A DNA stretch of 42,919 nt from positions 1 to 42,919 of the forward strand of contig MNGN01000060.1 in the NCBI GenBank assembly GCA_001918745.1, given 5' to 3'. Of the stretch, positions 3,963 through 9,726 are shown piece by piece. Numbering within the stretch: position 1 is the stretch's first letter; each line of letters starts with the position of its first letter. The notes beneath the pieces were generated by a model that had not been told where the DNA came from, made no database searches, and worked only from the letters and a program-made list of their open reading frames with translations. The stretch comes from Crenarchaeota archaeon 13_1_40CM_3_52_17 (GTDB lineage Archaea; Thermoproteota; Bathyarchaeia; 40CM-2-53-6). The position numbers were made by a program, and so were the translations under genes.

Positions 3963-4511
3963 CTATCCTCTGTTGATCTTCTCGGTCCAGCCAACGAGTG
4001 TCTGAAGAATGGTCTTCAACGCCTCTTTGGCTTGCGGATCTTTCAACTTGAGATCGCTGTCAAACGAGTCTTGGGCTCGGGCGAGAAGGAGTTGTGGCTG
4101 GTTGATCGGATACATGTTAAGGTCCACCAGTATCTGGCGGAGGTGCAATTGTGCCCGGGCACCTCCACGGGGACCCGACGAGGCACTCACGATAGCTGCT
4201 GCTTTCCCGTTCCATGAGTTGTCTCCACCGGGCCGGTTACCCCATTCGATCGCGTTCTTCAACACAGCAGTGATCGTATAGTTGTGCTCAGGTGTTGCAA
4301 ACAGTATTGCGTCGGATTGTCTGATCTTCTGTTTGAACAATTGTACTTCTGCAGGCGGGTTTCGCTCATGATCTTGTGTGAAAAGAGGAAATCGGGAAAC
4401 GTCAAAAATCTCCAAGGTGGCATTGTCTGGAAGCATTTCCTTCGCTGCTTCGAGCAGGCCCCAGTTGTAGGATCCCTTGCGATTGCTTCCAGAGATTCCG
4501 AGTATTTTCAT
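3963..4511 (-). CDS. NAD(P)H-dependent FMN reductase family protein
   Basis: A 182-aa flavodoxin-fold protein. MKILGISGSNRKGSYN carries the GSxRxxS FMN-phosphate loop of the SsuE/ArsH/chromate reductase family; DAILFATPEHNYTITAVLKNAIEW matches the family's central PEYN-type block that packs on the flavin, and the following GGDNSWNGKAAAIVSAS matches the next strand. The protein should reduce FMN or quinones with NAD(P)H in the cytoplasm. I chose ATG 4511 because the flavodoxin strand begins there; a longer frame to 4586 would overlap the QueA-like gene. It lies 53 nt downstream of that gene on the same strand and may be its last operon member. Specific substrate unknown. Confidence 0.85.
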   Translation of the reverse strand: MKILGISGSNRKGSYNWGLLEAAKEMLPDNATLEIFDVSRFPLFTQDHERNPPAEVQLFKQKIRQSDAILFATPEHNYTITAVLKNAIEWGNRPGGDNSWNGKAAAIVSASSGPRGGARAQLHLRQILVDLNMYPINQPQLLLARAQDSFDSDLKLKDPQAKEALKTILQTLVGWTEKINRG

Positions 4512-4564
4512 CGTATGCGTTTCCGTATTGTGATGTTTCTCCGGAGCGAGCTTGGTTCTCTCTT

Positions 4565-5605
4565 TTAGTTTGCGATTTGCCGCCATAGCAGATGGCTATC
4601 GCCGAATTCGTGCCAGAGATACTTGTTCCGGATTGCTTCCGCGTATGCTCTCTTGACTCGGCCGAGGCCAGCGATTGCGCTGAGCATCGCTAGATGGCTC
4701 GTGACGGGATCGTGTAATCCGGTTAGAAGCCCGTCGATGACATTGACAGTGGTTCCCGGGTGAATGTAGAGGCCGGTGGCGCCGGAGCAGGCGCGAACAC
4801 CGTTCGGGGTCCAAGCGGTTTCGAGAGCGCGGACGACGGTTGTGCCAACCGCGATGACGCGGCCGCCGCGGGCGTGTGTTGCGTTGACAGCGTTGGCGGT
4901 TGCCTCTGGAACCCGGAAAATCTCGGGGTACAGAGCCTGTTGCTCTACGGTGTCATCTTCGATTTCTAGGCTCGAGACGCCAGTGTGGAGGATTACTCCG
5001 ACAATTCCGATGCCACGTTCCCGTAATGTATCTCGAACGTGTGGTGTGATAGGTCGTGCGGCGCTCGGCATCTCGGCACTCCCTGGAAAGTGGGAGAAAA
5101 GTGTCTGGTAGTCTGACATCGGGTAGGCCGGTGCGTAGCTGTAGTGAATTGGTTCACCGTGCTTCGCCATGAGAACGCTGGCAGGAGTATCGAAATGAGT
5201 GAACCAGAGTCTCGGGATTCCCGGATACTGTTGGAGCAGGATGGCTTTTGCATCTCCGATCTGCAGGATCTCGTTCAAGTCCAGCGGAAGCGGACCAGGT
5301 CTAGATGGGCTCCATCGCGGCTCCGCGAGCCAGAGGTCATCAGCGAACCGGGTCGAGAGGTTAAGCCGGATCTTCCCAATGCGACAGGTGGCGGAAAGGC
5401 TTGCGGGTAGAGTTGCACTTTCGTTGACAACCAATAGGTCCCCCGGCTCAAGGAGCCATGGTAGATCAGTGAATGCATGATGAGTATCGTCTTCTGGTGT
5501 CGACATCATTAGACGAACGTCGTCCCGATCGTGTCCACGTAGCTCGGGTGGCGCGGAGGCGAAGAGGTGGGTTGGACGATCGAACAAGAGTTCGGACCTG
5601 TTCAA
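4565..5605 (-). CDS. QueA-like protein (SAM:tRNA ribosyltransferase-isomerase superfamily, divergent)
   Basis: The 346-aa product follows QueA over its length: RGHDRDDVRLMM, HAFTDLPWLLEPGDLLVVNE, GGRVIAVGTTVVRALETA (canonical GTTSVRTLE), ATGLYIHPG and a C-terminal YLWHEFGDSHLLW. Key bacterial QueA blocks differ: the APTAGLHF region reads MPSAARPIT and HKMHSE reads QQALYPE. That pattern, and the WHEFGDSHLL end, is how I remember a QueA paralogue of actinobacteria rather than the queuosine enzyme. QueA transfers and isomerises the ribosyl of SAM onto preQ1-tRNA; this paralogue's substrate is not known. The TTG start overlaps the upstream SDR stop by 4 nt (TTGA), so translation is probably coupled. 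Likely acquired horizontally. Confidence 0.85.
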   Translation of the reverse strand: MNRSELLFDRPTHLFASAPPELRGHDRDDVRLMMSTPEDDTHHAFTDLPWLLEPGDLLVVNESATLPASLSATCRIGKIRLNLSTRFADDLWLAEPRWSPSRPGPLPLDLNEILQIGDAKAILLQQYPGIPRLWFTHFDTPASVLMAKHGEPIHYSYAPAYPMSDYQTLFSHFPGSAEMPSAARPITPHVRDTLRERGIGIVGVILHTGVSSLEIEDDTVEQQALYPEIFRVPEATANAVNATHARGGRVIAVGTTVVRALETAWTPNGVRACSGATGLYIHPGTTVNVIDGLLTGLHDPVTSHLAMLSAIAGLGRVKRAYAEAIRNKYLWHEFGDSHLLWRQIAN

Positions 5606-6321
5606 GCCGGAATCTCCCAGAGTGTTCCTTGTGCGTGGTATCGCATCCCGGTGATTCTCTCGGGATTTTGGCTGACGAGCCAGGCCCAGAATGGGAGCGT
5701 TACCTCTGGGAGGGGGCGGTCGGAAATGTCCTCCCCAGGAAACGCGTCCTGGTGCATGCGGGTTCGCATGTCTCCCGGGTCGACGCTGACGACGGATATG
5801 TGTCGGGGTTTGAGTTCTGCTGCGAGCGTTTTCGAGGCGAGGTCTAGGGCGGCCTTACTTGATCCGTAGATTCCCCAGTGTTCGTAGCCTCCTTGGCTCG
5901 CATCGCTCGAGATGTTGACCACTAGTCCTCTGGACTGTTCTAGCTGGGGGAGAGACTCTTGGATGAGCGCGATAGGTGCGACAAGATTTGTTTCTAGTGT
6001 CAGCCGAAAACGCTGGAGAGATGCGAGGGCGAGCTCGGGACGCGGGATCTCGCCGAGATCAGAAGCGTTGTTCACAAGCAGACTGAGGCCACCGATCGCT
6101 CTCGTCTGTTGCAATAAACGGGTCCTGTGTACGGGATCTGTTATGTCACCGGGAATTGCGACCACTGTTACACCGGTACTTTCTAGGGATTGAGCAACAT
6201 CATGAAGCTCGGTGAAGGTCCGTGCTGTGATGACGATTTTGTGTCCTTGGCCTGCGAGGAAGGTGGCTAGGATTGGTCCGAGGCCGCGTCCCGCGCCTGT
6301 TACGAGTGCGACCCCCTTCAC
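5602..6321 (-). CDS. short-chain dehydrogenase/reductase (SDR)
   Basis: A 239-aa classical SDR. The cofactor loop TGAGRGLG is at residues 9-16, NNAS follows strand 4, the catalytic Ser is in NISSDAS and the YGSSK catalytic Tyr/Lys pair is near 152-156. The C-terminal half carries DPGDMRTRMHQDAFPGEDISDRP, which would shape the substrate pocket. It is the middle gene of a tightly coupled run: its GTG start overlaps the SufR-like gene (GTGA) and its stop overlaps the QueA-like gene. This coupling suggests that it acts on the same small molecule or nucleoside as the QueA-like protein. Substrate unknown. Confidence 0.88.
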   Translation of the reverse strand: MKGVALVTGAGRGLGPILATFLAGQGHKIVITARTFTELHDVAQSLESTGVTVVAIPGDITDPVHRTRLLQQTRAIGGLSLLVNNASDLGEIPRPELALASLQRFRLTLETNLVAPIALIQESLPQLEQSRGLVVNISSDASQGGYEHWGIYGSSKAALDLASKTLAAELKPRHISVVSVDPGDMRTRMHQDAFPGEDISDRPLPEVTLPFWAWLVSQNPERITGMRYHAQGTLWEIPA

Positions 6322-6989
6322 CCAGGCGTCCTCCGTCTTGGTGTGACTAGAAAACGGCAGACATTCTCGCCCGCGACGACCCGATGTGTCGTCTCCACGT
6401 TCGCGTCCAGAACCTTTCGGAATAACTCGTTCTCAACCGTGCATGCTTCCCAATAGCTCTCAGCGACCGCCAGTATTGGACAGTTGTGTTCTAGTATCTC
6501 GAACTTTGCGGGACCTGCTTGGTGATCCTCGGCCATGTAGCCTTCGCGATCGCGGAGTCCGGTTAGCTGGTGGACGCGTTCAGCGAGGGTCTCAGCTTTG
6601 ACCGCGCCACGATAGGTCGTGAGCGTTTCGGCTTGTCTACGACGCAGCGCTTCTTCGACAGCCTTACGTCCGAGTTTTTCTTCAATGTATGCGAGGGCGG
6701 CGCAGGTTACGCCTGCGTAGGCTCGCGGGAATAGTGAGGTTGCGGTTGGGGCAAGTCGTAAGGCTAGACGAGGACGTCCGGTTGTTCCTCGGACGGGTAT
6801 GCGTTCGATTAGTCCTCTCTCCTCCAATTCCTGGGCGTGCTTGTGAACGGCCATCTTTGAGATGCGCAATCGTTCGGCGAGTGTTTGGAGGTCTGACTGA
6901 CCTTCGCGCTTCAGGATCAGGAGGATCTCGCGCTTGGTGGACCCGAAGACTGGGTTGTCGGCCGGAGGATCGGGTAGTGGAATGCTCAT
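6318..6989 (-). CDS. SufR-like Fe-S-sensing winged-helix transcriptional regulator
   Basis: A 223-aa protein with an N-terminal winged helix (about 17-80: KREILLILKREGQ, then LQTLAERLRISKMAVHKHAQ, a wing ending RGTTGRPRL) and a C-terminal domain with cysteines at 170 (HNCPI), 183 (EAC) and 211 (ENVC). The spacings of 13 and 28 residues are what I recall for the three [4Fe-4S] ligands of actinobacterial SufR. SufR represses suf genes when it holds its cluster. Here it heads an SDR/QueA-like operon, not a suf operon, so it probably controls that operon autogenously in response to iron or redox state. ATG 6989 is a clear start. Confidence 0.85.
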   Translation of the reverse strand: MSIPLPDPPADNPVFGSTKREILLILKREGQSDLQTLAERLRISKMAVHKHAQELEERGLIERIPVRGTTGRPRLALRLAPTATSLFPRAYAGVTCAALAYIEEKLGRKAVEEALRRRQAETLTTYRGAVKAETLAERVHQLTGLRDREGYMAEDHQAGPAKFEILEHNCPILAVAESYWEACTVENELFRKVLDANVETTHRVVAGENVCRFLVTPRRRTPG

Positions 6990-7155
6990 TATGGTATTCG
7001 TTGTCTAGAGAGTATTTCAACTTACGGGTTTACAAAGTTTCGAAAAGGTCGGACTCATCGCTCTCACGGCGCGAGGTGCTCTCTGCTATCGCCTCCTCGC
7101 CTGTTTTTCTAGAGAAAATTTTCTGTCTGGCAAGGATAATCGCCGAGACAGGCTA

Positions 7156-8429: not shown

Positions 8430-9726
8430 TTGTCCACTCTCGACGAACCAGCCTTTATTCGACAGAGATTCGAACACAAGGCGACGGATAGTGTCCGAGG
8501 ACAAACCGGGTCTTCGCAAACCGTGACGATGCGTTACGCAGTCGCACTGTACATGAGCTCAGTCCTCGGCTCAGGGGTCCTAGTCCTACCGGGACTGGCA
8601 GCACAGATCGCGGGCCCTGCCTCTTTGTTCGCATGGGTCTTGTTGTCATTAGCAAGCTACCCGCTAGCGTACACCTTCGCGAGCCTGTCAGCTCGAAAGC
8701 CAGAGTCAGGCGGAGTATACTCGTTCGCGCGTGAGAGCTTCGGGTCGTCCACGGCAGACGCCGTAGGCTGGCGGCGCTCCAGTTGTCACCGTCATAGCGG
8801 CTTCGTATCTCTCATACGCGATACCACTTAGCAAGACAATGATTTACATCGTTGCCGCACTGATAATTCTCGGAACGTTTCTCATCAACTATCGAGGTAT
8901 AGTGATTAGCGGGAAGGTTCAGCTCGCAGTGATAGTCGCGATCGTCGGGCTTCTGCTGACAGCGGTGATCGCGTCTGCCCCGCTTGTTCGAGTCGAGAAT
9001 TTCAGTCCCTTCTTTCCCAACGGGATTCTGCCAATCGGTGTGGCGGCAGCCTTGATCTTCTGGTCATACCTAGGTTATGAGAACGTGTCGAATGTGGCTG
9101 AGGAGTTCAAGAACCCAAAGCGAGACTTTCACAGAAGTATTGTTCTCAGCGTTGTCGTCATCAGCACCTTGTATCTCTCGGTAGCTATCGCGACTGTTGG
9201 GACCAGGGCGTACGCAGCTGGAGGGAGCGTCGCACCATTCGCCGCAATCCTGTCCAACGCACTAGGCGTCTACGGTGGCGTCACTACTGGCGTTCTGGCA
9301 GTTTTCATAATATTCGGAACCGTCAACGCGTACACAACCGGAATGTCCAGAGTTGTCTACTCCCTGGCTAAAGAAGGAGGTCTTCCAAAAGCGGTAGCTC
9401 GAATCCATCCAAAAACAGGTGTCCCACCTCTCGCCCTGGCCGTGGTCTCCGGACCCTCCATGATAACGTTAGTAGCGTCTTATTTCTTGAATATCGATCT
9501 GCAGACAGCGCTCTTGATTCCAAGCGGGGCCGCAATCCTCGTCTACGTGATCGGTTCTGCGTCTGGAATACGACTCCTCAAGGGAAGCCGGCTGAGACTG
9601 TATCCATGGATCTCTCTCGCCGTTTCACTCATCATGCTGCCGTTCGTAGGAGTGGTTCTAGTCGTCAGTCTTGTGGTTGCGCTGTTCGGCTTCTTCTACC
9701 GAAGAATCCGCGGATTACGCCGATAA
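8430..9726 (+). pseudogene. APC-family amino-acid permease, frameshifted
   Basis: The N-terminal frame (TTG 8430) has the APC TM1 block MSSVLGSGVLVLPG, TM2 and the family's GGVYSFARESFG before it runs into unrelated residues after AVGW near 8770. The rest continues in another frame: GGAPVVTVIAASYLSYAIPLSK leads directly into MIYIVAALI (8839) and on through about eight more helices to 9726. Compared with the usual VGWLF...GAP segment, about 8 residues are missing, so a short out-of-frame deletion is more likely than a single-base error. The transporter would be inactive unless the assembly is wrong. Amino-acid or amine specificity cannot be told. Confidence 0.85.

Follow-up and report, generated by a model that had tools for sequence, protein, structure and literature searches.

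The locus described here comprises three minus-strand genes in a window of 42,919 nucleotides (the whole stretch of DNA that was analysed; contig C12 of genome G000) from a soil Bathyarchaeia metagenome-assembled genome (MAG) of 1.78 Mb and 80% completeness. A SufR-type winged-helix regulator (REG; positions 6318 to 6989) is followed by an SDR (5602 to 6321) and by a QueA-like PF02547 protein with a TTG start (4565 to 5605), and the genes overlap by 4 nt at both junctions (6318 to 6321 and 5602 to 5605). An earlier note on this DNA had described an archaeal operon of a SufR-type regulator, an SDR, and a QueA-like protein coupled through such overlaps; all three genes are real, and the coordinates and both overlaps hold. 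The window's kin are soil “Candidatus Bathyarchaeota” MAGs, the best named relative (L026) standing at 89% in the QueA-like protein. Since the gene order REG-SDR-QueA-like is repeated in every own-family genome with a long QueA-like match, wherever that side of the match is present, the arrangement is far from chance. An NADPH-dependent FMN reductase directly downstream on the same strand (3963 to 4541) was considered as a fourth module member and rejected: it is found in the closest kin only, outside the conserved core, and L019 and L020 carry broken or truncated copies. Elsewhere in the window (8430 to 9726), an amino acid permease is split into two ORFs (8430 to 8831 and 8839 to 9726) that correspond to a single 419-amino-acid frame in L026, which is a frameshift or an assembly error. 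Genome G018 holds two copies of the triplet (L017 and L023) and an extra REG-like gene (C37:107513) away from its QueA-like genes.

The regulator and its candidate operator

REG consists of an HTH and a SufR-like C-terminal part, scoring 127.6 bits against TIGR02702, below the equivalog cutoff of 178.8. As the earlier note had held, the regulator keeps the SufR cysteine spacing: C170, C183, and C211 (C170-X12-C183-X27-C211) follow each other in steps of 13 and 28 residues, equal to those of C203, C216, and C244 in Mycobacterium tuberculosis SufR (Rv1460), and the triad, C-X12-C-X27/28-C, is invariant in 25 of 25 aligned REGs. M. tuberculosis SufR requires these three residues (PMC6034842). Domain and triad together agree with the suggestion that this is a regulator of the Fe-S type. 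Of 61 Bathyarchaeia relatives, only the 9 with long QueA-like matches contain REG at about 440 bits or above, and the other 52 lack it at that level. In a tenth genome (G020), there are just two short C-terminal QueA-like fragments (L022:9479-9610 and L025:3922-4053; one at a contig end, one internal, with a 54-amino-acid frame), possibly a decayed gene.

Upstream of REG lies a 27-bp candidate operator/promoter (7013 to 7039, minus strand) with an AACTT...AAGTT dyad. Each of the nine Bathyarchaeia REG upstream regions scored matches this element with 0 to 2 mismatches, and the Thermoplasmata locus L224 with 6, whereas random windows from the same loci mostly give 12 to 16; the few random windows at 0 to 6 mismatches presumably caught the element itself. 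The dyad would be compatible with an autoregulatory site. A TTTGTnAAC box, followed in some cases by a TATAAA-like stretch, is seen upstream of REG in four Thermoplasmata loci (L050, L057, L064, and L066).

The QueA-like subfamily and its SDR partner

To our knowledge, no activity other than that of QueA has been characterised for the QueA fold, and very few other reactions transfer a ribosyl group from SAM. The window's QueA-like protein matches PF02547 over its full length (237.3 bits; cutoff, 25) and stays far under both QueA equivalog cutoffs (TIGR00113, 143.6 against 267.45; NF001140, 188.1 against 324). Its AlphaFold2 model (pLDDT 92, pTM 0.91) finds only QueA chains as significant PDB matches in Foldseek (1vky, 1yy3, and 1wdi); given the TM scores by query length (0.54 to 0.58) and the large rmsd, the two domains of the model are probably placed differently from those of QueA. 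A 45-row tree splits canonical QueA from the QueA-like group at 100/100, making the latter a sister subfamily. Across 18 canonical and 36 QueA-like sequences, we find 25 positions that are conserved and equal, including N61, Y166, Q167, P180, H207, E228, G254 to T256 (GTT), R259, and E262, and 8 where each group conserves a different residue, mostly near the PPYI and AAPTAGLHF blocks of canonical QueA. The QueA substrate blocks are thus missing, as had been claimed: PPYI, AAPTAGLHF, and NFHLPxST are replaced by PI(H/R)Y, AEMPSA, and GFHDPxxSH, and the PTAGLHF block is not present in QueA-like proteins. From the shared core and the altered regions, we infer that SAM chemistry is kept and the acceptor site changed, a reading that stays indirect because a 2023 review knew of no SAM complex of QueA (PMC10491745). 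The protein does end in WHEFGDSHLL, which had been likened to actinobacterial paralogues, but this ending is not specific to actinobacteria, HEFGD being found in all 25 aligned sequences from several archaeal and bacterial phyla. The public annotation of QueA-like genes as tRNA ribosyltransferase-isomerase is probably wrong. Among phage records, homologues occur in 21 of 50,697, the five listed having at most 33% identity, like canonical QueA. Some Thermoplasmatota carry a canonical-clade QueA without an SDR (L155 to L163, L229, and L230), which is odd for archaea.

The SDR is of the classical type by its domain match and motif residues, TGxGRGLG, N112, S139, Y152, and K156 being invariant in nine aligned family members. 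We assembled 119 QueA-like loci and, for comparison, 21 canonical QueA loci, 20 of them with upstream sequence, and counted an SDR as linked if it lay on the same strand within 1.5 kb upstream. Of the QueA-like loci with at least 700 b of upstream sequence, all 113 have an SDR immediately upstream, in 75 cases at most 35 nt from the QueA-like match; in the remaining six loci, it is still visible in three and a contig end cuts the other three. By contrast, no SDR precedes canonical QueA in any of the 20 loci with upstream sequence, and in a second set of 20 canonical QueA neighbourhoods, taken from carrier genomes (up to about 6 kb on each side), nothing matches an SDR, REG, SoxR, or HK, and one weak match is to a response regulator. 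These loci are not independent, as the six from Rhizobium and the nine from Bathyarchaeia are close kin, and 7 of 48 Chloroflexota QueA-like matches (at least 272 bits) lie outside the locus set.

Patristic distances of SDR and QueA-like proteins correlate at 0.90 (110 pairs; 0.89 after thinning to 76), a level that no permutation reached, and those of REG and QueA-like proteins at 0.78 (25; 0.67 for 16 thinned). Both the QueA-like and the SDR tree show the same two large clades, with L193 as the exception in the SDR tree, where inner branches are poorly resolved and the SDR branch of the strongly divergent Rhizobium pair measures 2.77; fragmentary rows were omitted from the trees (by a named fragment list in one, and below 250 amino acids in the tree used for counting regulator switches). 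Since vertically inherited, unlinked genes also produce congruence, it counts only alongside the linkage; in that combination, it bears out the earlier expectation of co-inheritance as a single unit, and we regard SDR and QueA-like protein as almost certainly one functional unit. The proposed neighbourhood search for SufR-SDR-QueA-like triplets did find them, but as one version only of a wider arrangement: the core that archaea and bacteria conserve is the SDR-QueA pair, with a variable regulator. No transporter or resistance gene recurs beside the pair across lineages, those seen being lineage specific, and a search of the open-licence PMC literature found no paper on the pair. An SDR on a Streptomyces clavuligerus plasmid (L084:3974-4714), 48% identical to that of the window, has no QueA-like neighbour; an MFS transporter and a type I polyketide synthase are nearby.

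Regulators across the loci

Our main new result concerns the regulator beside the pair, which has changed between three unrelated kinds of probable Fe-S redox sensor. A regulator of one of these kinds accompanies 62 of the 119 QueA-like loci (SufR-like, 30; SoxR, 10; HK/RR, 22), leaving 57 with none, in some cases because of short flanks; despite long flanks, no listed regulator is present in EA-type Thermoplasmata (none upstream among the stretches listed) or at five Anaerolineae-type loci. At the thresholds used, the three types are mutually exclusive: L245, where HK/RR is matched weakly some 3 kb from SoxR, was counted as SoxR only, and the weak matches to RR alone in L212, L232, and L233 were excluded. 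At least nine switches between the three types fall on the tree (60 labelled rows), and the sisters L055 and L062 have a kinase pair and a SoxR, respectively. An Anaerolineae MAG has, by eye, an ECF-type sigma factor (L039:575-1525) preceding the SDR-QueA-like pair, perhaps another regulator kind.

In Bathyarchaeia and many Thermoplasmata, the SufR-like gene is part of the operon and precedes the pair; other Thermoplasmata and Chloroflexota have it downstream or in divergent orientation, so its linkage to the pair survives rearrangement. The 10 SoxR genes, divergent from the SDR, are found on six Rhizobium plasmids and in Bauldia, one Deinococcota, and two Chloroflexota; the Rhizobium etli plasmid p42f is among the carriers of a soxR-SDR-QueA-like locus, and close to the locus of Rhizobium sp. 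T136 lies another soxR-like stretch, which is broken (L080:1844-2401). All 10 linked SoxRs contain CX2CXCX5C, which we take to be the SoxR motif. Upstream of the SDR, a sequence resembling TCAAGTTNACTTGA, presumably the core consensus of the sox box, occurs at 10 of 10 SoxR loci (0 mismatches in seven, 1 in two, and 2 in one) and, with up to 2 mismatches, at none of 100 QueA-like loci without SoxR; the shuffle control gave 11 of 10,000 shuffles for this core, which was selected after the sites had been seen. A search with the E. coli-type outer halves gave no separation, the best sites having 3 to 5 mismatches in SoxR loci and controls alike.

The 22 HK/RR loci belong to Actinomycetota, Chloroflexota, Deinococcota, and Methylobacteriaceae. 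Pfam, used here for L045, resolves a GAF-HisKA_3-HATPase kinase and a receiver-GerE regulator. Out of 20 linked kinases recovered, 18 have the GAF part, and 14 of these 18 a C-X-C-X17-20-C motif (it is missing in L077, L209, L045, and L249). AirS of the Staphylococcus aureus AirSR system is a [2Fe-2S] sensor kinase with the motif C-X7-C-X-C-X17-C (PMC4601167); in the linked kinases, the first cysteine of that motif is at a variable distance or absent, and L216 has the whole AirS spacing. The cysteine motif is in position in 12 of 12 linked kinases compared with 0 of 18 unlinked paralogues, one of which (L300) has an unrelated string of this form near its N terminus. A kinase-profile search of 12 carrier genomes gave the linked kinase as the genome's best match in 11, and the one broken over two frames in G692 also ranks first; because the query contained several linked kinases, their scores are high by construction, and what informs is the distance at which the best unlinked kinase (at most 287 bits) follows. 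Taken together, the sequences of the three sensor kinds make Fe-S-based redox control of the pair highly likely.

Function, origin, and relation to known systems

The earlier note had the operon probably imported from actinobacteria, which our trees do not support. The window's QueA-like protein groups with that of the Thermoplasmata locus L224 (98/92) and then with soil EA-type Thermoplasmata (100/99), within a clade of Chloroflexota, Deinococcota, Alphaproteobacteria, and other Thermoplasmata. The single actinobacterial member sampled, from Nonomuraea, falls in another clade, and constraining it with Bathyarchaeia is rejected (p-AU 3.3e-54); this dismisses an actinobacterial source for the one sequence and does not cover every actinobacterial donor. 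In a sample of the phylum, the module occurs in the window's own genus only (3 of 398 genomes), which makes exchange among soil archaea the likely route.

That three unrelated Fe-S-type sensors serve one pair suggests redox stress, Fe-S cluster loss, or redox-active compounds as the signal. We consider it fairly probable that the locus is a mobile module of an SDR and a QueA-family SAM enzyme, induced by redox stress through an Fe-S sensor that would here be a SufR-type, autoregulated repressor of the operon. Redox-active compounds, oxygen, or NO would damage or oxidise the sensor's cluster and so switch the operon on; the QueA-like protein would perform a QueA-type reaction on SAM, transferring or isomerising the ribosyl part and releasing adenine and methionine, and the SDR would reduce or oxidise the acceptor or the product, before or after that step. 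The acceptor would be a small molecule and not preQ1-tRNA, a point on which we see even chances. In Streptomyces and Pseudomonas, SoxR controls small groups of oxidoreductase-type genes that respond to redox-active compounds, the targets in antibiotic producers being transporters and tailoring-type enzymes (PMC4146615); by this analogy, the likeliest purpose would be the tailoring or detoxification of a redox-active metabolite. For the nucleoside substrate named in the earlier note, the sole basis is the family name. Against our reading weigh the 57 loci with no listed regulator, the four linked kinases that lack the cysteine motif, the strong divergence of the Rhizobium pair, and the finding that no transporter or resistance gene accompanies the pair in lineage after lineage.

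Other readings weigh the same evidence differently. The pair may biosynthesise a SAM-derived small molecule, such as a protective compound, a cofactor, or a signal, with redox control timing its production: the two consecutive enzymes are of a small-molecule type, no transporter or resistance gene recurs, and very different regulators are tolerated provided that they read redox. We think this unlikely, as two genes without a further conserved enzyme make a short pathway and no result pinpoints the product. A redox-stress modification of tRNA, related to queuosine, or of another RNA, with the SDR finishing the side chain, is decidedly improbable, although fold and core residues are common with QueA and E. 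coli lacking Q is reported to be altered in metal and oxidative-stress homeostasis (PMC9508795). Eight of 17 carrier genomes searched already have a canonical QueA, as bacterial carriers often do, the QueA-like type being alone in nine (six archaea, two Deinococcota, and one Chloroflexota), and the canonical PTAGLHF block is replaced. QueG is above the cutoff in 9 of 18 genomes, among them none of the seven archaeal carriers tested (G000 included) and neither of two Deinococcota, and QueH in 0 of the 18 searched; these being drafts, single absences weigh little and the pattern counts. We know of no SDR partner in Q synthesis. On the genome counts and the replaced block, a queuosine role was rejected, and the QueA-like protein very probably does something else.

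It is also conceivable that the QueA-like protein breaks SAM, another sulfonium, or a nucleoside without ribose transfer, the module salvaging or disposing of a damaged nucleoside. The replaced conserved positions (A178E-type changes and the HEFGD tail) could mean new chemistry, but the shared core (from N61 through Y166-Q167 and GTT254-256 to E262) argues that SAM chemistry is kept and no result favours breakage positively, so we give it little credence. That the regulators are mere hitchhikers, kinases and MarR/MerR regulators being common enough to sit there by chance, could draw on the 57 of 119 loci with none of them; it is scarcely credible given that 0 of 20 canonical QueA neighbourhoods carry any of the three, that sox-box-like sites stand at 10 of 10 SoxR loci, and that the linked kinase ranks first in 11 of 12 genomes with the best unlinked one at 287 bits or less, even with several linked kinases in the query. 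The redox-induced module acting on a small molecule remains our preferred reading; that it further represents a novel class of SAM-ribosyl chemistry, in a widespread redox-defence module wired repeatedly to SufR-type, SoxR, and AirS-type sensors, we put forward only tentatively. If this is true, QueA chemistry would gain a second role outside tRNA, a question that the R. etli p42f locus makes testable.

The three-way exchange of unrelated Fe-S-type regulators provides a clean example of convergent regulatory wiring in nature, and each part resembles a known system while departing from it. With SufR, both as the cyanobacterial TIGR02702 family and as Rv1460, REG has the winged helix and the Rv1460 cysteine spacing in common, but it adjoins an SDR-QueA-like pair with no suf genes beside it and scores under the SufR_cyano cutoff. 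The predicted structure shares the PF02547 fold and core residues with QueA (SAM:tRNA ribosyltransferase-isomerase), from which the QueA-like proteins differ in their sub-cutoff scores, separate clade, replaced blocks, and an SDR upstream wherever this is visible. Most of the linked kinases appear to share the C-X-C-X17-20-C core with AirS (PMC4601167), but they belong to other phyla and are tied to one enzyme pair, and any cluster in them is predicted from sequence. Finally, where the abstract of the Streptomyces and Pseudomonas work mentions no QueA-family target of SoxR (PMC4146615), the loci described here place SoxR divergent from such a pair in Rhizobium, Bauldia, Deinococcota, and Chloroflexota.
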